46,250 bases of DNA from Lentimicrobium sp. L6. GTDB taxonomy: Bacteria > Bacteroidota > Bacteroidia > Bacteroidales > UBA12170. The DNA lies in contig NZ_JABKCA010000045.1 in NCBI RefSeq assembly GCF_013166655.1, positions 1 through 46,250 on the forward strand. The letters are read 5' to 3'. This document shows, piece after piece, positions 12,871-21,995 of this stretch. Under the pieces are notes generated by a model that was given only the letters and a program-made list of their open reading frames with translations, was not told the DNA's origin and searched no databases. The first letter of the stretch is position 1, and the number at the start of each line of letters is the position of its first letter. The position numbers and the translations under genes are program-made.

Positions 12871-13026
12871 GCTGAAAAAATAAAATCAAATATAGTGAAA
12901 CAATAAAGTATTGATAATAAATATTTTAACATTTACTTCACAATTTAAGAAGATTGAGTCCTATTGAAACTAAACGTAACCATTTCATCTACTCTTCATC
13001 TAATCAATGAAAACAAAAAAAGACAG

Positions 13027-14232
13027 ATGGGGAATCAAATTAAGGGACTACCGAATGGGCATAAGCCAGTTCCGGGTAAGTTCACAAGAACACTATGGTG
13101 GTTTTCTACGGCCATTCCAGAAGTAATAAAAGACTGTACAACGGATAGATATAGAGCCAGAATTATTGGAGCAGCTGTTGTATTTACTTGGATTTATGCC
13201 ACCGTAGCTTGGATGTATTTTTGGTCTTTAAGTATATCCTCCCCTTTCCTATTTGTTCCTCTTGGTTTATTGATTGGCTTCGGAATCCTCAGTATCGACA
13301 GAATGCTCATTGCAAGTATTAACAAGAATAAAAAGAGTAAAATTGCCATTACTTTTAGAGTTTTATTGGCTATTCTCTTAGGTTCTTTCATTGCCCAACC
13401 TATATTATTATGGATGTTTGAAAAAGACATTAGTCAAGAAATTTCTATTGTTCAGGAAGAAAAAGTACAAGAAAAAAGAACAGAGTTATTATCCATTTAT
13501 CAATCAGAAAAAGAAGGACTTATTGCGCAGCAAAACAAACTAGACATTGATAAATCTATCAGATATGCAGCTTTAGAAAGGGCTGAGAAAGAATATATAA
13601 ATGAAATTGATGGTACTGGAGGTTCAAAGAAATTTGGAATTGCTGGAATTGCTCGAGAAAAAGAAAAGGCCTATTTAAGAAGCCAAAAAGCATATAGTGC
13701 CATAGAGGAGTCTCAAAAGAAAGAACTCAGCAAAATTGATGATAGAATAACGAGTATCGATAGTATCGTCAATTATGGAACGGAAGATTTCAGAACCAAT
13801 AAGCTCTCCCAAGGCTTCCTCATTCGAGTGAATGCTTTGCAGAGTTTATTTGAGAAGGACGAGCATTTTGCCCTCCAAAAACGATACTATCTCATTCTTT
13901 TAATATTGGTCCTCTTCGAACTCATTCCCATCATCAGTAAGCTTTATTTGCCCACTGGCTCCTATGATGAAAAAGTAAGATTACAAGACCAATTAGAACT
14001 ACGGCTAGCTCAAATTAATCAAGAACAAAATCTAGATTTCCATCAACATACTTACCAAGTTGCACAAGAAGCTGACAAACTATTATCCTCTGAACTCTAC
14101 AAACTAGCCCCACCAAAACAGCAAGAGCAATTAGAGCTCATGTTTGAAGAGTGGAAATCATCCCCTCAACAAAGTTTTGAGGAGTTCTTGAATCATGTCA
14201 ATTTTAAATTGATGAGAAACAGAAATTTATAA
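13027..14232 (+). CDS. DUF4407 domain-containing membrane protein
   Basis: I choose the ATG at 13027 (MGNQIKGLP) over an upstream TTG at 12964. The product is 401 residues. Three hydrophobic segments lie close together in the first third (about 40-60, 67-85 and 100-125). A long Glu/Lys/Gln-rich coiled coil follows (about 135-265) and a fourth membrane segment is near 285-308. The C-terminal tail is charged and helical. This is the DUF4407 layout, in which a large coiled coil sits on one side of the membrane. The function of the family is not known. The SIDRMLIASI motif after the second helix is a typical conserved block. The gene stands alone, ending about 90 nt before the trp promoter. Confidence 0.82.
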   Translation: MGNQIKGLPNGHKPVPGKFTRTLWWFSTAIPEVIKDCTTDRYRARIIGAAVVFTWIYATVAWMYFWSLSISSPFLFVPLGLLIGFGILSIDRMLIASINKNKKSKIAITFRVLLAILLGSFIAQPILLWMFEKDISQEISIVQEEKVQEKRTELLSIYQSEKEGLIAQQNKLDIDKSIRYAALERAEKEYINEIDGTGGSKKFGIAGIAREKEKAYLRSQKAYSAIEESQKKELSKIDDRITSIDSIVNYGTEDFRTNKLSQGFLIRVNALQSLFEKDEHFALQKRYYLILLILVLFELIPIISKLYLPTGSYDEKVRLQDQLELRLAQINQEQNLDFHQHTYQVAQEADKLLSSELYKLAPPKQQEQLELMFEEWKSSPQQSFEEFLNHVNFKLMRNRNL

Positions 14233-14319
14233 AGTTCAAAAATTCAAATTCTCTTTGTTTATATTTTGGTTCGTTTCTTAGTCTTAATGTTAACAGAAGA
14301 TTAATTTAAACAACCACAT

Positions 14320-14349
14320 TTTGATCATTCAAAAAAATGTCTACATTTG
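14320..14349 (+). promoter_or_regulatory. trp operon promoter
   Basis: A TTTG -33 box (14320-14323) and an exact TAnnTTTG -7 box (TACATTTG, 14342-14349) are separated by 18 nt, one of the best Bacteroidota-type promoters in the window. The predicted transcription start is about 14353-14357, only a few bases before the first leader ATG at 14358. Confidence 0.8.
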
Positions 14350-14357
14350 CCTTCGAA

Positions 14358-14405
14358 ATGAATAACAACATGAACATAAATAATTGGTGGCTTTTAGATC
14401 TATAA
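14358..14405 (+). CDS. trp leader peptide 1 (two Trp codons)
   Basis: This 15-codon ORF encodes MNNNMNINNWWLLDL and stops at 14403-14405. The adjacent Trp codons are at 14385-14390, 15 nt before the stop. An internal ATG at 14370 would give an 11-residue version. A leader hairpin pairs 14390-14399 with 14405-14415 (bulged G at 14411). A ribosome held at the Trp codons would disrupt it and free 14411-14417 (GAAGCAG) to pair with 14447-14453, which blocks terminator 1. This is the standard logic of ribosome-mediated trp attenuation as known from E. coli. Pairings were worked out by eye. Confidence 0.82.
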   Translation: MNNNMNINNWWLLDL

Positions 14406-14441
14406 TCTAAGAAGCAGCTATATTTATATAAAATATTTTAC

Positions 14442-14471
14442 AAGACCTGCTTTAAGAGCAGGTCTTTTTTT
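14442..14471 (+). terminator. trp attenuator terminator 1
   Basis: AAGACCTGCT (14442-14451) pairs perfectly with AGCAGGTCTT (14457-14466) around a 5-nt loop; seven T follow (14465-14471). It lies 37 nt after the stop of leader peptide 1 and would stop transcription when Trp is plentiful. Confidence 0.9.
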
Positions 14472-14491
14472 GTGCAAAAAAATTAAAAAAC

Positions 14492-14554
14492 ATGACAACA
14501 ACAATGACAATTTCAGCTAAATATTGGTGGCGCTACTCAGGAATCCAGACCTAA
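14492..14554 (+). CDS. trp leader peptide 2 (two Trp codons)
   Basis: A second leader ORF of 20 codons begins 20 nt after terminator 1. It starts MTTTMTISA and carries adjacent Trp codons at 14525-14530 inside a KYWWRY segment, so two Tyr codons flank the Trp pair. The stop is at 14552-14554. The Trp codons themselves (14525-14531) can pair with GCCCCA (14558-14563) with one bulged U, a protector hairpin that a stalled ribosome would open. AAGAAGC (14553-14559) can then pair with GCTTCTT (14598-14604) to block terminator 2. No promoter is seen between the two leaders, so this leader should be transcribed only by read-through of terminator 1. Confidence 0.8.
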   Translation: MTTTMTISAKYWWRYSGIQT

Positions 14555-14591
14555 GAAGCCCCAGACTATTATATATATATACATCACATAT

Positions 14592-14617
14592 AAGCCTGCT
14601 TCTTGCAGGCTTTTTTT
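14592..14617 (+). terminator. trp attenuator terminator 2
   Basis: AAGCCTGC (14592-14599) pairs perfectly with GCAGGCTT (14605-14612) around a 5-nt TTCTT loop; the T run covers 14611-14617. It sits only 15 nt before the trpE ATG, so it must be bypassed for trpE expression. Confidence 0.9.
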
Positions 14618-14631
14618 ATACCCAAGAAATA

Positions 14632-16044
14632 ATGAAAAGAAAAGTTTACACCAGTTATTTAAAGACCATTGCCGACCTCATCACACCCGTTGGCGTTTAT
14701 AGTGCATTACGCGATCACTATCCCAATGCCCTCTTACTCGAAAGCGCAGATTACCATGATAGAAGCGATAGTAAAAGCTTTATCTGTCTGAATCCCATTG
14801 CAGGTTTCGAGGCCACTCAAAAGAACTATGAGATACAATATCCCGGAGAGGAGGCTCAAAAAATAGTCGCTACTAAAAACGAAGACATCCTCCAATCTTT
14901 TAAGGAGTTTATTGAGTCATTCGAAGCAGTGGAGACTGACCTACCCTTCAATAGTTCAGGCCTTTTTGGCTATTCTTCTTTTGAGGCAGTCCAGTATATG
15001 GAAGAGATTGAAATGAATAACCCAAGTGATATTATGAAGGATAATCCCGATATGAAATATCAACTTTTTGAATTTATCTTGGTTTTCGATCATTTCAAAA
15101 ATGAACTCTATATCACTCAAAACAGCATCGATAAAAATATCGCTAGTCCTAAGGGTTTGGATAAATTCAAAGGATTATTAAGATTACAAAGTGACCCAGG
15201 ATTCAAATTCAATAAAGAGGGTGAGGAATCAGCAAATATTGATGCAGATACTTTTAAGAATAACGTCACTAAGGGAATTCAACATTGTTTACGAGGTGAT
15301 GTTTTCCAATTGGTTTTATCACGCCGATTTCAACAAAAGTTCAAAGGAGATGACTTTAATGTTTACCGAAGTTTAAGAAGCATCAATCCATCCCCATACC
15401 TCTTCTATTTTGATTATGGGAATTTCAAAATCATGGGCTCCTCCCCAGAATCTCAATTGCAAATAAATAAGGGAATGGCCTATATCAATCCCATTGCGGG
15501 TACTGTATTGCGAAGCCAAAATTCTGCTGAAGATGCCGAAAGAGCAAAAGCTTTACAGAATAACCCTAAAGAAAAAGCAGAACATGTCATGTTGGTAGAC
15601 TTGGCCAGAAACGACCTAAGTATCAACTCCGAAGAAGTAAATGTAGAGACCTATGCCGAAATCCAATACTTTTCTCATGTTATTCACATGGTCAGCAGAG
15701 TAAGTGGGAAATTAGAAAAAGGAGCCAATGGATTAGACATCTACGCCGACACCTTTCCTGCAGGTACACTTTCAGGAGCACCAAAATATAGAGCCTTGGA
15801 AATCATTAATGAAACCGAAACCTGCACCCGAAGCTTCTACGGAGGCGCATTAGGGTTTATGGGCTTTGATGGGAGTATCAATCATGCCATCATCATTCGC
15901 TCCTTATTGAGCAAAAACCAAACTCTCAATTACCAAGCTGGTGCCGGAATTGTTGCCCACAGTACTCCTGAAGGAGAATTACAAGAAGTAGATAACAAAG
16001 TAGCAGCCCTTAGAAAAGCCATTGAATTAGCACAAACCCTATAA
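14632..16044 (+). CDS. trpE: Anthranilate synthase component I
   Basis: TrpE makes anthranilate from chorismate using ammonia from TrpG, the first committed step to tryptophan. The ATG at 14632 is chosen; a frame open back to 14524 runs through the second leader and terminator and is not coding. The 470-residue protein has the N-terminal regulatory domain with LLESA (residues 35-39), the known Trp feedback-binding motif. The C-terminal chorismate-binding domain has GDVFQLVLSRRF, NPSPYLFYFD, NPIAGT, DLARNDL and the FPAGTLSGAPK catalytic block. It is the first structural gene of the trp operon, controlled by the double attenuator. The LLESA motif predicts enzyme-level feedback as well. trpG follows after 10 nt. 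Confidence 0.97.
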   Translation: MKRKVYTSYLKTIADLITPVGVYSALRDHYPNALLLESADYHDRSDSKSFICLNPIAGFEATQKNYEIQYPGEEAQKIVATKNEDILQSFKEFIESFEAVETDLPFNSSGLFGYSSFEAVQYMEEIEMNNPSDIMKDNPDMKYQLFEFILVFDHFKNELYITQNSIDKNIASPKGLDKFKGLLRLQSDPGFKFNKEGEESANIDADTFKNNVTKGIQHCLRGDVFQLVLSRRFQQKFKGDDFNVYRSLRSINPSPYLFYFDYGNFKIMGSSPESQLQINKGMAYINPIAGTVLRSQNSAEDAERAKALQNNPKEKAEHVMLVDLARNDLSINSEEVNVETYAEIQYFSHVIHMVSRVSGKLEKGANGLDIYADTFPAGTLSGAPKYRALEIINETETCTRSFYGGALGFMGFDGSINHAIIIRSLLSKNQTLNYQAGAGIVAHSTPEGELQEVDNKVAALRKAIELAQTL

Positions 16045-16054
16045 ATCAATTAAG

Positions 16055-16639
16055 ATGAAAATATTAGTATTAGATAATTACGACAGCTTCACCTATAATT
16101 TGGTTTATATTTTGAAACAAAACCAAATACAATTTGATGTGATAAGAAATGATAAAATATCAAATGAGGATGCATTAAAATATGATGGTATTCTATTGTC
16201 ACCAGGGCCTGGAATTCCAGAAGAAGCAGGAAATATGCCCAGCATTATTGAAACTTGTGCTGGGATAGTACCAATTTTAGGAATTTGTCTAGGCCACCAA
16301 GCGATTGCACAATATTTAGGTGGCGAAATCATCAATAGAAACGATGTGCTTCATGGCATGCAAACACCCATTATTCGCACACAAAAAGCATCTCCCATTT
16401 TTGAGAATGTGCCAGAAAACTTCGAAGCAGGAAGATATCATTCTTGGGAATTAAATAAAGAAAATATTCCTGAAAAAATAGAATGCACCGCTATAGATGA
16501 GCAAGGAAGCATTATGGCCCTTCAAAATTTAGAATTGAATCTTTTTGGCTTACAATTTCACCCAGAGAGCATCATGACCTCAGAAGGAAAGAAGATGGTA
16601 GACAATTTTATTGAAATCTGTAAATCTACAGCCTCATGA
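16055..16639 (+). CDS. trpG: Anthranilate synthase component II (glutamine amidotransferase)
   Basis: This 194-residue class I glutamine amidotransferase supplies ammonia to TrpE. The oxyanion-hole segment LLSPGPGIP is near 47-55, the catalytic Cys is C78 in GICLGHQ, and the His/Glu pair is H169/E171 in QFHPES. In many bacteria the same subunit also serves PabB for folate synthesis. The position directly after trpE makes the Trp role primary, and I see no pabB here. Its TGA stop overlaps the trpD ATG by 4 nt (ATGA), a sign of translational coupling. Confidence 0.96.
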   Translation: MKILVLDNYDSFTYNLVYILKQNQIQFDVIRNDKISNEDALKYDGILLSPGPGIPEEAGNMPSIIETCAGIVPILGICLGHQAIAQYLGGEIINRNDVLHGMQTPIIRTQKASPIFENVPENFEAGRYHSWELNKENIPEKIECTAIDEQGSIMALQNLELNLFGLQFHPESIMTSEGKKMVDNFIEICKSTAS

Positions 16640-17625
16640 AAATGATATTAGAAAGATTATTTCAGCAACAAAAACTCAGCCGAGAAGAGGCCAAGGAAAT
16701 ATTAGGATTCATCTCCGAAGGAAAGTATAACACCAGTGAAGTGAGCGCATTCCTTACTGTTTTTCGTATGAGGAGTATTACCGTTGACGAGCTGAGTGGT
16801 TTTAGAGATGGTATGATAGAACGCTGTATTCCCATTAATCTAGACGAGTTTAATCCTGTAGATTTATGTGGAACGGGTGGCGATGGAAAAGATACTTTTA
16901 ACATCAGCACATTGTCTTCATTCATTACTGCTGGAGCAGGGCTTAAAGTAGCCAAGCATGGGAATTATGGAGTGAGTTCCTCTTGCGGTTCCTCCAATGT
17001 AATGGAACACTTAGGCTATAAATTCACCAATCAAATCGATATACTTAAGCAACAAATAGATAAAAGCGGAATTTGCTTTTTACACGCTCCTCTGTTTCAT
17101 CCTTCTATGAAAAATGTAGCACCTATCAGAAGAGATATTGGGGTAAAAACATTTTTTAATATGCTAGGGCCTATGGTGAATCCAGCATCTCCCAAAAATC
17201 AAATGGTGGGCGTTTATTCTATGGAACTTCAACGCTATTACAAATATATTTATGAGCAAGAAAATAAGAATTACCGCATTGTTCATAGTATGGATGGATA
17301 TGATGAAATCAGCTTAACCGCTCCGACTAAGGTTATCAGCCCTGACAAAGAATATATGCTAAGTCCAGAAATCATCAGCAAAGAAAAAATAAACCCAGAA
17401 GATTTAAAAGGAGGTAAAACGGTAGCTGAATCAGCAAAAATATTCACCAGCATATTAAATGGAGAAGGAACTTATGCCCAAAACAGAGCCGTAATTGCAA
17501 ATGCTGCTATGGCCATTAATGCAGTTCATTCAGAAAAATCCTTTGAAGATTGTCTAAATATGGCACAAGAATCTTTGGAAAGTAAAAAAGCACAACAAGC
17601 CCTAAAAACCTTAATTTCATCATGA
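16636..17625 (+). CDS. trpD: Anthranilate phosphoribosyltransferase
   Basis: TrpD joins anthranilate to PRPP to give phosphoribosyl-anthranilate. At 329 residues it is standard length. The small helical N-terminal domain (about 1-72) is followed by the PRPP-binding CGTGGDGKDTFNIST block (about 78-92), the KHGNYGVSSSCGSSNVMEHLG segment split across about 107-128, and the HPSMKNVAPIRRDIG motif (near 155) that contacts anthranilate. Start and stop both overlap neighbours by 4 nt (trpG and trpC), so translation is tightly coupled. There is no fusion to trpG, unlike some enterobacteria. Confidence 0.96.
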   Translation: MKMILERLFQQQKLSREEAKEILGFISEGKYNTSEVSAFLTVFRMRSITVDELSGFRDGMIERCIPINLDEFNPVDLCGTGGDGKDTFNISTLSSFITAGAGLKVAKHGNYGVSSSCGSSNVMEHLGYKFTNQIDILKQQIDKSGICFLHAPLFHPSMKNVAPIRRDIGVKTFFNMLGPMVNPASPKNQMVGVYSMELQRYYKYIYEQENKNYRIVHSMDGYDEISLTAPTKVISPDKEYMLSPEIISKEKINPEDLKGGKTVAESAKIFTSILNGEGTYAQNRAVIANAAMAINAVHSEKSFEDCLNMAQESLESKKAQQALKTLISS

Positions 17626-18422
17626 GTATTTTAGAAAAAATAATAGCGACCAAATTAGAAGAAGTCGCCCATAATAAATCAATGACCCCAGTTAAACTTT
17701 TGGAGAAGAGCATTTATTTCGAAACCGAAAAAGTTTCCATGAAAGAATATCTGCTTCGCACAGATAAAGTCGGAATCATTGCCGAAATCAAAAGGAAATC
17801 TCCCAGTACTGGAGAGTTAAAATCAAACGTGAATATTGAAGAATTAAGCATAGGCTATATGCAAGCTGGAGCCACCGCACTTTCTGTACTCACCGACCAA
17901 ACTTATTTCGGAGGCCAAAACAAAGACCTCACCGAAGCCAGAAAATTCAATTATTGCCCCATCCTCCGCAAAGATTTTATTATTGATGAATATCAAATAC
18001 TAGAAGCCAAAAGCATTGGAGCGGATTGTATTTTACTCATTGCAGCCAACTTAAGCCCAAAAAGATGTATCGAACTCGCTGAATTTGCCCAAAAGATAGG
18101 ATTAGAAGTATTAATGGAAGTAAATGCAAAAAATGAAATTGAGAGTCATTGCAATCCTCATATAGATATTGTTGGAGTAAATAACAGAAACCTCCACGAT
18201 TTCACTACAAATCTTGAAACCTCCATGAAACTTTCTGAATTCATCCCTGAAGAATTTGTAAAAATTAGCGAAAGTGGTATTACGGAAGCTGAACAAGTAT
18301 TACAACTGAAGGAATATGGATTCAAAGGATTCTTAGTGGGCGGGCACTTTATGAAAATGGCTGAACCGGTTGTGGCTTGTCGCGAATTGATTTCAAACAT
18401 TCAAAACCAGTTATCATGTTAA
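17622..18422 (+). CDS. trpC: Indole-3-glycerol phosphate synthase
   Basis: TrpC closes the indole ring, converting CdRP to indole-3-glycerol phosphate. The 266-residue TIM barrel carries the catalytic EIKRKSPS motif (E55, K57), then RKDFIIDEYQI, LMEVN, GVNNRNL and the phosphate-binding ISESGI and FLVGGHFM ends. It is a separate enzyme, not fused to trpF as in E. coli. The start overlaps the trpD stop by 4 nt, and its stop lies within the first codons of trpF. Confidence 0.96.
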   Translation: MSILEKIIATKLEEVAHNKSMTPVKLLEKSIYFETEKVSMKEYLLRTDKVGIIAEIKRKSPSTGELKSNVNIEELSIGYMQAGATALSVLTDQTYFGGQNKDLTEARKFNYCPILRKDFIIDEYQILEAKSIGADCILLIAANLSPKRCIELAEFAQKIGLEVLMEVNAKNEIESHCNPHIDIVGVNNRNLHDFTTNLETSMKLSEFIPEEFVKISESGITEAEQVLQLKEYGFKGFLVGGHFMKMAEPVVACRELISNIQNQLSC

Positions 18423-19039
18423 TGAAAGTTTGTGGAATGAAATATTCCGATAATATATCGGCTCTTGCTTCATTAAAACCCGATATGATGGGCTTCATCT
18501 TCTATCCAAAATCAAAGCGGTTTGTGGACAAAAAAGTTTTGGAGATGAGCTTTCGCGAGTTTGATAAAAACATATCAAAAGTGGCTGTATTTGTAAATAA
18601 GTCAGCTGAATTTATTGCTTCCGATCTAGTGGGATTACACTTCGACTATATACAATTACATGGCAAAGAACCCATTGAAGAAGTGATCAAACTAAAGAAC
18701 TATGGCTATAAAATTATTAAAGCTTTTCCTATGAGTAATGCATTCGAATGGGATCGCACTGAAGCATACGAAGCCTATTGTGACTATTTTGTTTTTGATA
18801 CCTCAAGTCCTAATCATGGTGGAAGCGGTCAACAGTTCGACTGGAATATTCTCAAAAACTATCAGGGAAAAACACCTTTTCTATTGAGCGGAGGCATCTC
18901 TATACAAGACATAGAGCAAATTAAAAAGTTTCAACATCCACAGCTTGCCGGAATTGACATCAACAGCAAATTTGAAATAGAACCTGGACTAAAAGATATT
19001 GACTTGGTTCAGAAAATGATTAAAGAATTTAGACGATGA
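18416..19039 (+). CDS. trpF: Phosphoribosylanthranilate isomerase
   Basis: TrpF isomerises phosphoribosyl-anthranilate to CdRP, the step before TrpC. I choose ATG 18416 (MLMKVCGM), which overlaps the trpC stop by 7 nt. ATG 18422, overlapping by 1 nt in a TAATG junction, is an equally reasonable start. An upstream TTG frame to 18377 is not credible. The product is about 207 residues. It has the catalytic Cys in KVCGMK, the LHGKE segment (about 88), and the catalytic Asp in FVFDTSSPNHGGSG; the barrel ends at LSGGIS and GIDINSKFE. The gene overlaps trpB by 4 nt. Confidence 0.95.
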   Translation: MLMKVCGMKYSDNISALASLKPDMMGFIFYPKSKRFVDKKVLEMSFREFDKNISKVAVFVNKSAEFIASDLVGLHFDYIQLHGKEPIEEVIKLKNYGYKIIKAFPMSNAFEWDRTEAYEAYCDYFVFDTSSPNHGGSGQQFDWNILKNYQGKTPFLLSGGISIQDIEQIKKFQHPQLAGIDINSKFEIEPGLKDIDLVQKMIKEFRR

Positions 19040-20211
19040 AAAATACAAAAATATCAAACCATATAGACAGTGAAGGATTTTATGGCGATTACGGGGGAGC
19101 CTTTATTCCTGAAATGCTTCAGCCTAATATTGAAGAATTGAAATCTTCATATATTGAAATATTGGATTCAAAGGAATTTCAAGAGGAGTTTAAAGAGCTC
19201 CTTAGAAACTATGTGGGTCGCCCCACCCCTATTTATCATGCCAAAAGATTAAGTGAACACTATAAAACTCAAATTTATTTGAAACGCGAAGACCTCTGCC
19301 ATACCGGAGCCCATAAAATCAATAATGCTTTGGGGCAAATATTATTGGCCAAAAGACTAAAGAAAAGCAGAATCATTGCAGAAACAGGAGCTGGACAACA
19401 TGGAGTAGCCACCGCTACAGCATGCGCCTTAATGGGAATGCAATGCGTGGTTTATATGGGTGCCGTGGATGTGGAACGTCAATCACCAAACGTAGACAGA
19501 ATGAAAATGCTCGGTGCAGAAGTCATTCCAGTACATAGTGGGAGCAAAACCTTGAAAGACGCCACCAATGAAGCCATCCGCGATTGGATTACAAATCCTA
19601 CAGATACTCACTATATCATAGGTTCAGTGGTTGGGCCGCATCCCTATCCAGATTTGGTAGCCCGATTACAATCTGTAATAAGTGAAGAAATCATAACTCA
19701 AATGCCAGAGGAGCCTACACATATTATTGCTTGTATAGGAGGAGGCAGCAATGCCATTGGTGCATTCTATCACTTTTTAGACAAAGAGCATGTAAACTTA
19801 ATTGGAGTGGAAGCAGCCGGCAAAGGTATTCACACCAATGAAACTGCAGCCACTTTAACTTTGGGTACTACTGGGGTTTTACATGCCTGCATGACTACCC
19901 TTTTGCAAACCAAGGACGGACAAGTCATTGAACCTCATAGCATTTCAGCAGGTTTAGATTATCCTGGAATTGGCCCTCAACATGCCCATTTACATCAAAA
20001 CAAAAGCGTAAAATATGTAAGCGCTACCGATGAAGAAGCTGTTGCAGCCGCATTTCTCTTAACACAAAAAGAAGGAATTATTCCAGCGCTTGAATCTGCA
20101 CATGCCTTTGCTTATTTGGAGCAACAAGAATGGGAACCAACTGATAGAATCCTGATTAATTTAAGTGGTCGTGGCGACAAAGACCTCAGTACTTACTCAA
20201 AATTTATTTAA
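19036..20211 (+). CDS. trpB: Tryptophan synthase beta chain
   Basis: TrpB condenses indole with serine to form tryptophan, using PLP. At 391 residues it matches the TrpB1 type that works with TrpA. The N-terminal GDYGGAFIPEMLQP is the classic TrpB1 opening. The PLP Lys is K93 in HTGAHKIN, the AETGAGQHGVATA block follows near 120, and the phosphate-binding GGGSNAIG is near 234. The C-terminus has the SGRGDKD motif typical of the family. Start overlaps trpF by 4 nt; trpA begins 1 nt after its stop. Confidence 0.97.
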   Translation: MKNTKISNHIDSEGFYGDYGGAFIPEMLQPNIEELKSSYIEILDSKEFQEEFKELLRNYVGRPTPIYHAKRLSEHYKTQIYLKREDLCHTGAHKINNALGQILLAKRLKKSRIIAETGAGQHGVATATACALMGMQCVVYMGAVDVERQSPNVDRMKMLGAEVIPVHSGSKTLKDATNEAIRDWITNPTDTHYIIGSVVGPHPYPDLVARLQSVISEEIITQMPEEPTHIIACIGGGSNAIGAFYHFLDKEHVNLIGVEAAGKGIHTNETAATLTLGTTGVLHACMTTLLQTKDGQVIEPHSISAGLDYPGIGPQHAHLHQNKSVKYVSATDEEAVAAAFLLTQKEGIIPALESAHAFAYLEQQEWEPTDRILINLSGRGDKDLSTYSKFI

Positions 20212-20212
20212 G

Positions 20213-20974
20213 ATGAGCCTACAAGAATTATTTCAAAAAGACCAGAAACCACTTCTGAATATTTATTTCTCAGCTGGTTTTCCTAATATAGACAGCCTAC
20301 CCGAGCTTCTCAAATCGCTAGAGGAAGCGGAGGTTGATATGGTAGAAATAGGCATTCCCTACTCCGACCCACTTAGCGATGGACCAACTATTCAACACAG
20401 CAATAGCATAGCCCTGAAAAACGGAATTACTTTAGAACTCATATTTCAACAATTGGAAAGCTCCTCAAGTAGCATCCCGAAAATCATGATGGGATATTTT
20501 AATTCTGTGCTGCAATTTAGAGTGGAAGAATTCTGCAAAAGATGTTTTGAAAATGGGATTAGCGGAGTCATCCTCCCCGATTTGCCTTTGGAAATATATC
20601 AAAGGAAATACCAAGATATCTTTGAAAAATATGAATTAAGCTTTATCCTACTCATCACTCCTGAAACCACAGAAGAAAGAATCAGAAAGATAGACGAACA
20701 TTCTACTTCTTTTATTTATGCGGTTAGTAGCGCCGGAACAACGGGCACCAAAAAAGGAATACAAGGTGCAGAAAATTATCTTCAAAGAATAGCTTCCATG
20801 AAGCTTAAAACTCCTGTCATGGTAGGATTCAATATCAGCAGCCCAGAAGATTTCAAATTTGCCAGTAAATACACCAGTGGTGGAATCATAGGAAGTGCCT
20901 TCATCAAACATATAGAAAACAGCAAAGATTTATCCCAAGACACCCAACAATTTATCAATTATATTAAATCCTAG
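20213..20974 (+). CDS. trpA: Tryptophan synthase alpha chain
   Basis: TrpA splits indole-3-glycerol phosphate into indole and glyceraldehyde 3-phosphate and channels indole to TrpB. I choose ATG 20213 (MSLQELFQ), 1 nt after the trpB stop; the frame open to 20165 lies inside trpB. The 253-residue barrel has the catalytic Glu and Asp at E45 and D56 within VEIGIPYSDPLSDGPTIQ, matching E49 and D60 of the Salmonella enzyme. SAGTTGTKKG (loop 6) and the GIIGSAFIK phosphate site follow. The DAHP synthase gene starts 4 nt later. Confidence 0.96.
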   Translation: MSLQELFQKDQKPLLNIYFSAGFPNIDSLPELLKSLEEAEVDMVEIGIPYSDPLSDGPTIQHSNSIALKNGITLELIFQQLESSSSSIPKIMMGYFNSVLQFRVEEFCKRCFENGISGVILPDLPLEIYQRKYQDIFEKYELSFILLITPETTEERIRKIDEHSTSFIYAVSSAGTTGTKKGIQGAENYLQRIASMKLKTPVMVGFNISSPEDFKFASKYTSGGIIGSAFIKHIENSKDLSQDTQQFINYIKS

Positions 20975-20978
20975 AATC

Positions 20979-21995
20979 ATGATTATTCAGTTAAATACAA
21001 ATATAAAAGCAGGAGAAAACCTTCAACTTAAACAGGGTTTAGATCAACTCAAAATTCCATTTTATCCCGTCAATACCCAGTTGGGTGAATATCTCATTTG
21101 CACTCCTAATCAAGATTTCGATATCAGAAGAATTGGTCAACTTCATGGAATAAAAGATGTACACCGAGTAAATGGAACTCATAAAATGGTGAGTAGTAAA
21201 TGGAAAGTAAAAAGAAGTATAATAGACATTGGAGATGGAATAGAAATAGGTGCTGGAGAAATGACGGTGATGGCTGGGCCATGCAGCATAGAAGATGAGT
21301 CTCAGGTATTAAAAACGGTGGAGCAACTCAAAAAACATGGTGTGAAAATCATGCGAGGAGGAGTCTATAAACCTAGAACAAGTCCTTATAGTTTTAGAGG
21401 TCATGGTATGGAGGGACTCAAAATGTTTCATGAGATTTGCAAAGCCAATAATATAAAAATCATTACGGAAGTGATGGAAACTGGACAAATTGACGCCATG
21501 GCTCCATATGTGGATATTTTTCAAATTGGTGCTCGGAATTCTCAAAATTTTAATCTTTTAGAAGCCTTAGGGCAAATTGACAAACCTGTGATGATAAAAA
21601 GAGGGATCAGTGGAAGTATTGATGAATTGCTCTATTCGGCAGAATACGTTTTCAAAAATGGGAACGAGAAACTCATTCTTTGCGAAAGAGGCATCCGTAC
21701 TTATGAGAAAGCCTACAGAAATACCCTCGATTTAAATGCTGTTCCCATTTTAAAAGAAAAATCCCACTTGCCTGTTATTGTGGATCCAAGTCATGGAATT
21801 GGTTTGAGGAAACACATTGTCCCTATGACCTTAGCCAGCATAGCTTCAGGGGCTGATGGTGTGATTATTGAAATTCATGAAACACCCGACAAAGCAGCTA
21901 CTGATGGACAACAAACCATTGATTATAATGAGTTTAATTCTTTAATGGGGAAACTGAATAGTCTTTCGGGTATTTTGGGTAATTGGTATAATTAG
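20979..21995 (+). CDS. 3-deoxy-7-phosphoheptulonate (DAHP) synthase, type I beta with N-terminal regulatory domain
   Basis: This enzyme condenses phosphoenolpyruvate and erythrose 4-phosphate into DAHP, the entry step of the shikimate pathway. The 338 residues divide into an N-terminal ferredoxin-like regulatory domain (about 1-75) and a catalytic TIM barrel. The barrel has MAGPCSIEDE (about 91-100), RGGVYKPRTSPYSFRG (about 117), KRGISGS and DPSHGIGLRKHI. In this subfamily the N-terminal domain carries feedback control by aromatic amino acids. Placed 4 nt after trpA, it raises precursor supply together with tryptophan synthesis and falls under the same double attenuator. I leave the symbol blank because aroF, aroG and aroA are all used. 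Confidence 0.95.
   Translation: MIIQLNTNIKAGENLQLKQGLDQLKIPFYPVNTQLGEYLICTPNQDFDIRRIGQLHGIKDVHRVNGTHKMVSSKWKVKRSIIDIGDGIEIGAGEMTVMAGPCSIEDESQVLKTVEQLKKHGVKIMRGGVYKPRTSPYSFRGHGMEGLKMFHEICKANNIKIITEVMETGQIDAMAPYVDIFQIGARNSQNFNLLEALGQIDKPVMIKRGISGSIDELLYSAEYVFKNGNEKLILCERGIRTYEKAYRNTLDLNAVPILKEKSHLPVIVDPSHGIGLRKHIVPMTLASIASGADGVIIEIHETPDKAATDGQQTIDYNEFNSLMGKLNSLSGILGNWYN

Follow-up and report, generated by a model that had tools for sequence, protein, structure and literature searches.

Two putative tryptophan peptide attenuators in series ahead of trpE in Lentimicrobium sp. L6, an arrangement that recurs among trpE leaders

The window analyzed here is a stretch of 46,250 nucleotides of the Lentimicrobium sp. 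L6 genome (contig NZ_JABKCA010000045.1, positions 1 to 46,250), in which a trp operon with the gene order trpE-G-D-C-F-B-A-DAHP synthase occupies positions 14632-21995 of the forward strand. The first gene, trpE (P0001, 14632..16044), encodes anthranilate synthase component I, based on its match to the NCBIfam model TIGR00564 trpE_most (E-value 1.2e-124), although the score of 416.8 bits is below the curated cut-off of 517.7. The remaining genes, on the same strand (16055..21995), were likewise assigned from NCBIfam matches; trpG, trpD, trpC, trpB, trpA and the DAHP synthase gene each match a model over its cut-off, and trpF has sub-cut-off matches only (148.8 bits versus 215). Directly upstream of the leader of this operon is an ORF of 422 amino acids (12964-14232) with no NCBIfam match at E 0.001. 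With regard to the distribution of trpE itself, we noted a TrpE match at E ≤ 1e-100 in three of 11 genomes of the window's genus, some of which are incomplete, while the closest TrpE outside the genus (62% identity) is found in another order, in genome G396; in that order, two of 42 genomes match at E ≤ 1e-140, G396 included. The genomes concerned are G000 (the window), G003, G005 and G396, and the trp operon may have moved between lineages.

The leader between the upstream ORF and trpE contains two units on the forward strand, each of which has a short ORF with adjacent Trp codons, followed by an intrinsic terminator that precedes the first gene, based on the sequence and on folding. The first leader ORF, MNNNMNINNWWLLDL, spans 14358..14405, with its Trp codons (TGGTGG) at 14385..14390 and its stop codon at 14403-14405. 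A candidate antiterminator segment, CTAAGAAGCAG, lies directly 3' of this stop codon at 14407..14417, and terminator 1, which ends in seven T residues, is located at 14442..14471. The second leader ORF, MTTTMTISAKYWWRYSGIQT, spans 14492..14554, with its Trp codons (TGGTGG) at 14525..14530 and its stop codon at 14552-14554. The candidate antiterminator segment of this unit, CTAAGAAGC, at 14551..14559, overlaps the stop codon, and terminator 2, also with seven T residues, is located at 14592..14617. Both terminators were called by a consensus scan and by folding. A sequence-only reading of this DNA had reported these Trp codons and terminators, as well as a repeated segment that follows the Trp codons in both leaders, and a check of the sequence found all of them where they had been placed; the repeat, CTAAGAAGC, is present at 14407-14415 and again at 14551-14559.

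The same reading had set the start of the arrangement at 14342. There is indeed a promoter motif at that position, but it is the -7 motif that begins at 14342 and not the leader, and thus the ATG of leader 1 is most likely that at 14358 or an alternative inner ATG at 14370; another ATG, at 14337, sits upstream of the -7 motif. The adjacent Trp codons in each unit argue for a single signal read by both leaders. Leader 1 also contains runs of Asn codons and leader 2 has a run of Thr codons near its start, so a second signal may be read as well.

The occurrence of two such units is not explained by chance. In the region 14200-14700, the consensus scan found only these two terminator-like sites, compared to a mean of 0.2 in shuffled sequence, and the hairpins are more stable than expected (-15.6 kcal/mol, z -5.2, for terminator 1 and -13.7 kcal/mol, z -5.8, for terminator 2). 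We also used an automatic unit finder, which calls an ORF of at most 60 codons with WW or WxW that is followed by a hairpin and at least five T residues. When this finder was applied to dinucleotide-shuffled versions of 285 trpE upstream regions, each shuffled five times, a unit was found in only one of 1425 copies; two units in one region are therefore not a chance result.

For the two units to act in series, they would have to lie on a single transcript. The promoter motif upstream of leader 1 (14319..14349, forward strand) is composed of TTTTG at 14319-14323, a -33 element that was read by eye only, and a -7 box, TACATTTG, at 14342-14349, which begins after a spacing of 18 bases and which we take to follow the Bacteroidota -7 consensus. 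A sigma-70 scan of 14200-14700 gave no promoter match, and the Bacteroidota -7 motif was examined in its place. Across trpE leaders with one unit (collected as described below), the distance from the start of the exact motif, TANNTTTG, to the first Trp codon is 30-60 nt in 118 of 188 units and 60-90 nt in 18 of 188, but each bin from 90 to 240 nt contains only 1-5 of 187-188 units. Of the 11 genomes that we found to have two units, five have the exact motif 30-90 nt ahead of the Trp codons in unit 1, and the remaining six have boxes with one mismatch, a count that comes without a chance rate. By comparison, none of these 11 genomes has the exact motif at this distance from the Trp codons of unit 2. 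Boxes with one mismatch precede unit 2 in three of the 11 (again a count without a chance rate), and favor a reading in which each unit has a promoter of its own and the two act in parallel instead of in series. In the window, this box is simply the T-run of terminator 1 and it is missing from the sister genome; in light of this, and of the frequency with which the exact box precedes single units, we consider separate promoters very improbable. One promoter probably serves both units. As a side observation, an ATG is found 4-10 nt after the -7 box in 50 of 95 single units with both a box and an in-frame ATG (for example, L101), a count that predates the re-orientation of minus-strand loci. With this spacing, which in the window corresponds to the stretch 14342-14360, the leader mRNAs would be near-leaderless.

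In trp attenuators of the E. coli type, the position of the ribosome selects between an antiterminator and a terminator. We consider it probable, at roughly 0.84, that the leader in the window comprises two ribosome-controlled trp peptide attenuators of this kind, arranged in series on one transcript. This transcript would begin just after the -7 box and would carry both attenuators ahead of trpE-G-D-C-F-B-A-DAHP synthase. When charged tRNA-Trp is plentiful, a ribosome translating a leader ORF would reach the stop codon and cover the antiterminator segment, which would allow the terminator hairpin to form and RNA polymerase to halt. When Trp is scarce, the ribosome would stall on the two Trp codons and leave the segment exposed, and the exposed segment would pair with the terminator's loop and 5' arm, such that polymerase continues. 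Transcription of the genes would require read-through at both terminators; thus, repression at high Trp would be approximately the product of the repression at the two sites, and we infer that the result would be multiplied repression and a sharper response.

We modeled this choice by masking the RNA that is hidden by a ribosome, to 12 nt past the codon that it occupies, and by calculating the pairing of the terminator 5' arm with upstream RNA before the terminator 3' arm emerges. With the ribosome stalled at the Trp codons, the antiterminator pairing is 0.99 for unit 1 and 1.0 for unit 2, but it is only 0.06 and 0.12, respectively, once the ribosome has reached the stop codon. Thus, in the model, the segment of each unit is free at a Trp stall and covered at the stop codon. 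When the spacers were shuffled, none of 100 shuffles matched the switch of the window's unit, for either unit. Similar behavior is obtained from the larger collection of units, although with greater variation. For 209 of 211 units (the other two were left out because the spacer is too short), the median pairing is 0.96 when stalled and 0.27 at the stop codon, compared to 0.70 and 0.61 after shuffling; the corresponding medians for the 22 units from the two-unit genomes are 0.96 and 0.18. Against ideal behavior, the pairing still exceeds 0.5 when the ribosome occupies the stop codon in five of these 22 units (L101 unit 1, L261 unit 2, L283 unit 2, L288 unit 1 and L333 unit 1), and it does so in 53 of 187 single units. 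With no ribosome on the leader, a situation in which a classical attenuator should terminate, the model gives an intermediate pairing of 0.51 for unit 1 and 0.46 for unit 2.

Folding order decides the outcome in any attenuator. When units from the two-unit genomes were folded at equilibrium (12 units), the terminator was present in every state, and thus the mechanism requires kinetic, co-transcriptional folding, which our masking only approximates.

An alternative pairing that competes with each terminator had been proposed, and we find one in both units: the segment at the stop codon pairs with the terminator 5' arm. The calculated energy of this duplex is -9.1 kcal/mol for the unit 1 segment region with the terminator 1 arm, and likewise -9.1 kcal/mol for unit 2 with the terminator 2 arm. 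If segments and terminators are partners, cognate duplexes should be stronger than those formed with the terminators of other units. Indeed, cognate duplexes have a mean energy of -11.51 kcal/mol over the 211 units, while the mean with permuted partners is -8.76 kcal/mol (sd 0.17), and the lowest value in 5000 permutations is -9.40 kcal/mol; therefore, segment and terminator co-vary. For an individual unit, the preference can be weak, as segments often pair equally well with other terminators, which for the two units of the window amount to 16% and 26% of all terminators.

To examine whether both units are maintained, we compared the window with its sister genome, G003, in which TrpE is 92% identical and both units are present. 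The promoter stretch differs at 4 of 31 bases. In unit 1, leader 1 differs at 2 of 48 bases with identical Trp codons, the segment at 0 of 13, the spacer at 0 of 23 and terminator 1 at 2 of 30, but given how close the sister is, the conservation of unit 1 constitutes weak evidence. Unit 2 is more informative. Differences are found at 12 of 63 bases in leader 2 and at 10 of 26 in the spacer before terminator 2, but the start codon, the adjacent Trp codons (0 of 6) and the stop codon are retained with no indel, and the segment region and terminator 2 differ at one base each (1 of 15 and 1 of 26, respectively). These differences bear on whether only one unit works as an attenuator, with the other either a duplicate in decay or simply a terminator that serves as a backup. 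An unselected duplicate would be expected to decay, and the divergence of leader 2 is in line with this expectation. However, the changes spare the functional elements while the peptide drifts, a pattern unlike that of a decaying copy. Moreover, both units of the window behave as switches in the masking model, two units are also found in L003, the TrpE of which has only 62% identity to that of the window, and two-unit leaders are spread over 8 family-level groups. We therefore regard a single working unit as quite unlikely. The Trp codons and terminators, the loss of which in relatives had been named as grounds for abandoning the idea of two attenuators in series, are conserved in the relatives.

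The repeated segment had also been taken to mean that one unit probably arose by duplication of the other. For the clade of the window, this origin is plausible from the sequences, but the similarity between sibling units that it implies is mostly missing in other two-unit leaders. If the corresponding unit of the sister is set aside, the closest match to unit 2 of the window is the single unit of L004, an outgroup, and L004 ranks second for unit 1, behind L266; the window's units rank each other 12th and 4th of 214. Among the nine two-unit leaders outside the sister pair, L333 is alone in having both sibling units within the top 10 (5th and 10th). The sibling ranks are 3rd and 23rd for L003, and range from 23rd to 131st for the others. 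Sibling similarity as proof of duplication in every two-unit leader thus failed in most cases.

To determine how widely two units occur, we surveyed 287 distinct trpE upstream regions, of which 189 have one unit, 87 have none and 11 have two. The regions were obtained from the contigs of trpE relatives (of these 80 loci, L002-L026 were counted) and by searching whole genomes from the class to which the window belongs; 121 full loci were read on the strand of the match, 44 of which were on the minus strand. Six duplicates were dropped from an initial 293 regions, three of them repeats of one genome and three of them from pairs of distinct genomes that share an identical core sequence. L088 and L207 each had two automatic units but were counted as single by inspection, since the first of the two was a long ORF that looks like a coding gene and its hairpin was either weak or far away. 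The sample is uneven, in that one whole-genome search gave at least 154 matching genomes, of which a subset was read. Of the 87 regions with no unit, three (L023, L157 and L259) provided under 300 bases upstream of trpE. In other such cases, another gene, such as trpB, may come first in the operon, a possibility suggested by several genomes in which the match to the Rfam family RF01692 lies far upstream of trpE. Among 55 further loci (L027-L081), there were no two-unit leaders, but 19 leaders with one unit and 36 with none.

The 11 genomes with two units are G000 (the window), G003 (the sister), G396 (locus L003), G016, G066, G090, G580, G572, G661, G594 and G608. A family-level search around G090 yielded G580, but no further two-unit leader was found by an order-level search around G396 or by family-level searches around G066 and G395. 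None of the 11 genomes has a match over the cut-off to the Trp repressor family; there is one sub-threshold match, in G396. We then placed the number of units on a tree of TrpE with 102 rows, limited to loci with a TrpE sequence, from which 13 near-copies from the Flavobacterium group and regions with upstream sequence only were excluded. By parsimony, the two-unit state requires 7 changes on this tree, which may be gains or losses, and at least 3 changes are forced by well-supported branches. The state is clustered, since shuffled labels require a mean of 10.6 changes and none of 500 shuffles gave a number as low. L003 and the two sisters form one clade (SH-aLRT 93), with L004 and L113, each with a single unit, next outside it.

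Two other types of leader were noted in the course of the survey. Five loci (L271, L272, L284, L289 and L330) have leaders with WWW or WWWW but no adjacent terminator that passes the threshold, possibly because their terminators are weak or because control operates in another mode. In five loci outside Bacteroidota (L041, L050, L052, L072 and L077), one Trp-rich leader is followed by at least two terminator-like hairpins, which is possibly another way to double the stop signal.

The two units of the window may not be fully independent of each other. In the window, segment 1 pairs better with the arm of terminator 2 (-14.7 kcal/mol) than with that of its own terminator (-9.1 kcal/mol), and the same is true in the sister (-13.7 versus -9.6 kcal/mol); thus, the product of two independent gates may be an incomplete description. 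These energies raise the possibility that a stall on leader 1 frees the segment at 14407-14417, which opens terminator 1 and later pairs with the terminator 2 arm. The second pairing would take place once terminator 1 has refolded behind the polymerase, such that both terminators would be opened by leader 1, leaving unit 2 as a conditional second gate. We consider this course of events rather unlikely; it would be a special form of the arrangement in series, with which its odds overlap. We modeled it in six of the 11 two-unit genomes (the two sisters, L261, L003, L101 and L238). With ribosome 1 stalled, the terminator 2 arm pairs with segment 1 at 1.0 in the window and its sister for any position of ribosome 2, and in L261 the value is as high as 0.86 when ribosome 2 occupies its stop codon, but only 0.23 when ribosome 2 is stalled. 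L003, L101 and L238 reach at most 0.48 with leader 1 stalled. Furthermore, segment 1 prefers terminator 2 in six of the 11 two-unit leaders, but the reverse preference, which would be mechanistically useless, is found in three of the 11, with no clear difference between the two. The cross-match could also be explained by shared ancestry of the units, and the model pairings were obtained by equilibrium folding. An interlocked pair, in which a single antiterminator strand is passed as an RNA relay from terminator 1 to terminator 2, is unlikely. If it did exist, it would act as a ratchet that is shut more strongly at high Trp and makes only one decision when Trp is low.

The sequence-only reading had proposed a series of two complete trp peptide attenuators, and this is the interpretation that the evidence supports best. 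The single unit is already known in Bacteroidota, as the Bacteroid-trp family (Rfam RF01692) is listed in a table of Weinberg et al. 2010 (PMC2864571), and is mentioned for F. psychrophilum in PMC6414381. The doubling, on the other hand, was not found: among the matches listed for open-licence papers in PMC, there was no tandem peptide trp leader. What we find is a real and recurrent doubling of a known type of attenuator.

Like Bacteroid-trp, the units of the window have a leader with Trp codons upstream of Bacteroidota trp genes, and both align with RF01692 over its full length, but at 38.1 bits (14341-14451) and 26.4 bits (14481-14600) in a permissive Rfam scan, both are below the cut-off of 49. 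In a scan at the gathering score of 13 loci, only the Flavobacterium locus L006 matched (67.5 bits); L004, L113 and the two-unit loci (0 of 10 scanned) did not. An order-wide search with RF01692 matched 58 of 393 genomes, with one match each, under stricter filters by which the window itself was missed. Both units are also below the cut-off of 41 for RF00513 Trp_leader (35.6 and 24.6 bits). At the gathering score, no Rfam family was found in the window. The permissive scan gave 38 matches, and those other than RF01692 and RF00513 were to unrelated weak families, which we took as chance. The units share with the E. coli-type trp attenuator the adjacent Trp codons, the segment at the stop codon and the competition of antiterminator and terminator, but differ from it in that there are two in series, in a genome without a Trp repressor match over the cut-off.

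The nearest arrangements described among the open-licence papers listed are tandem T-boxes, which precede trpE in Bacillota, and the mgtCBR leader of Salmonella. The latter contains two short ORFs that respond to different signals (ATP and proline), according to PMC3641672, which contrasts mgtCBR with the metE leader, where two sites are expected to be intrinsic terminators. The window likewise has two leader ORFs, with no exact -7 box between them, and they would lie on one mRNA, but in contrast to mgtCBR as described there, both units contain adjacent Trp codons, with a separate terminator for each unit. T-boxes bind tRNA directly, whereas the sensor here would be the translating ribosome, and the permissive Rfam scan found no T-box structure at 14250-14660 up to E 5. 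Of the contiguous T-boxes before trpE in Bacillota, 99% are pairs and 1% are triples according to PMC12452182, and these resemble the leader described here in having two sensors in series ahead of the same operon. Single trpL candidates are the subject of discussion in a Chlamydia paper (PMC3937554).

In Bacillota and Bacteroidota, paired sensors precede the same operon, with T-boxes in one phylum and peptide leaders in the other, and thus with unrelated chemistry. We hypothesize from this that a single attenuator may be too leaky for a costly pathway in genomes without TrpR; the TrpR scan behind this idea covered the 11 two-unit genomes.

In textbooks, peptide-leader attenuation operates with one switch for each operon. 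A doubled trp-sensing switch could allow a costly pathway to be controlled more tightly. The TrpE tree provides neighbors that differ in having one or two units (L258 and L101, L094 and L288, and L004 and the clade of L003 and the window), and such pairs constitute a natural experiment on how the number of gates relates to dynamic range.
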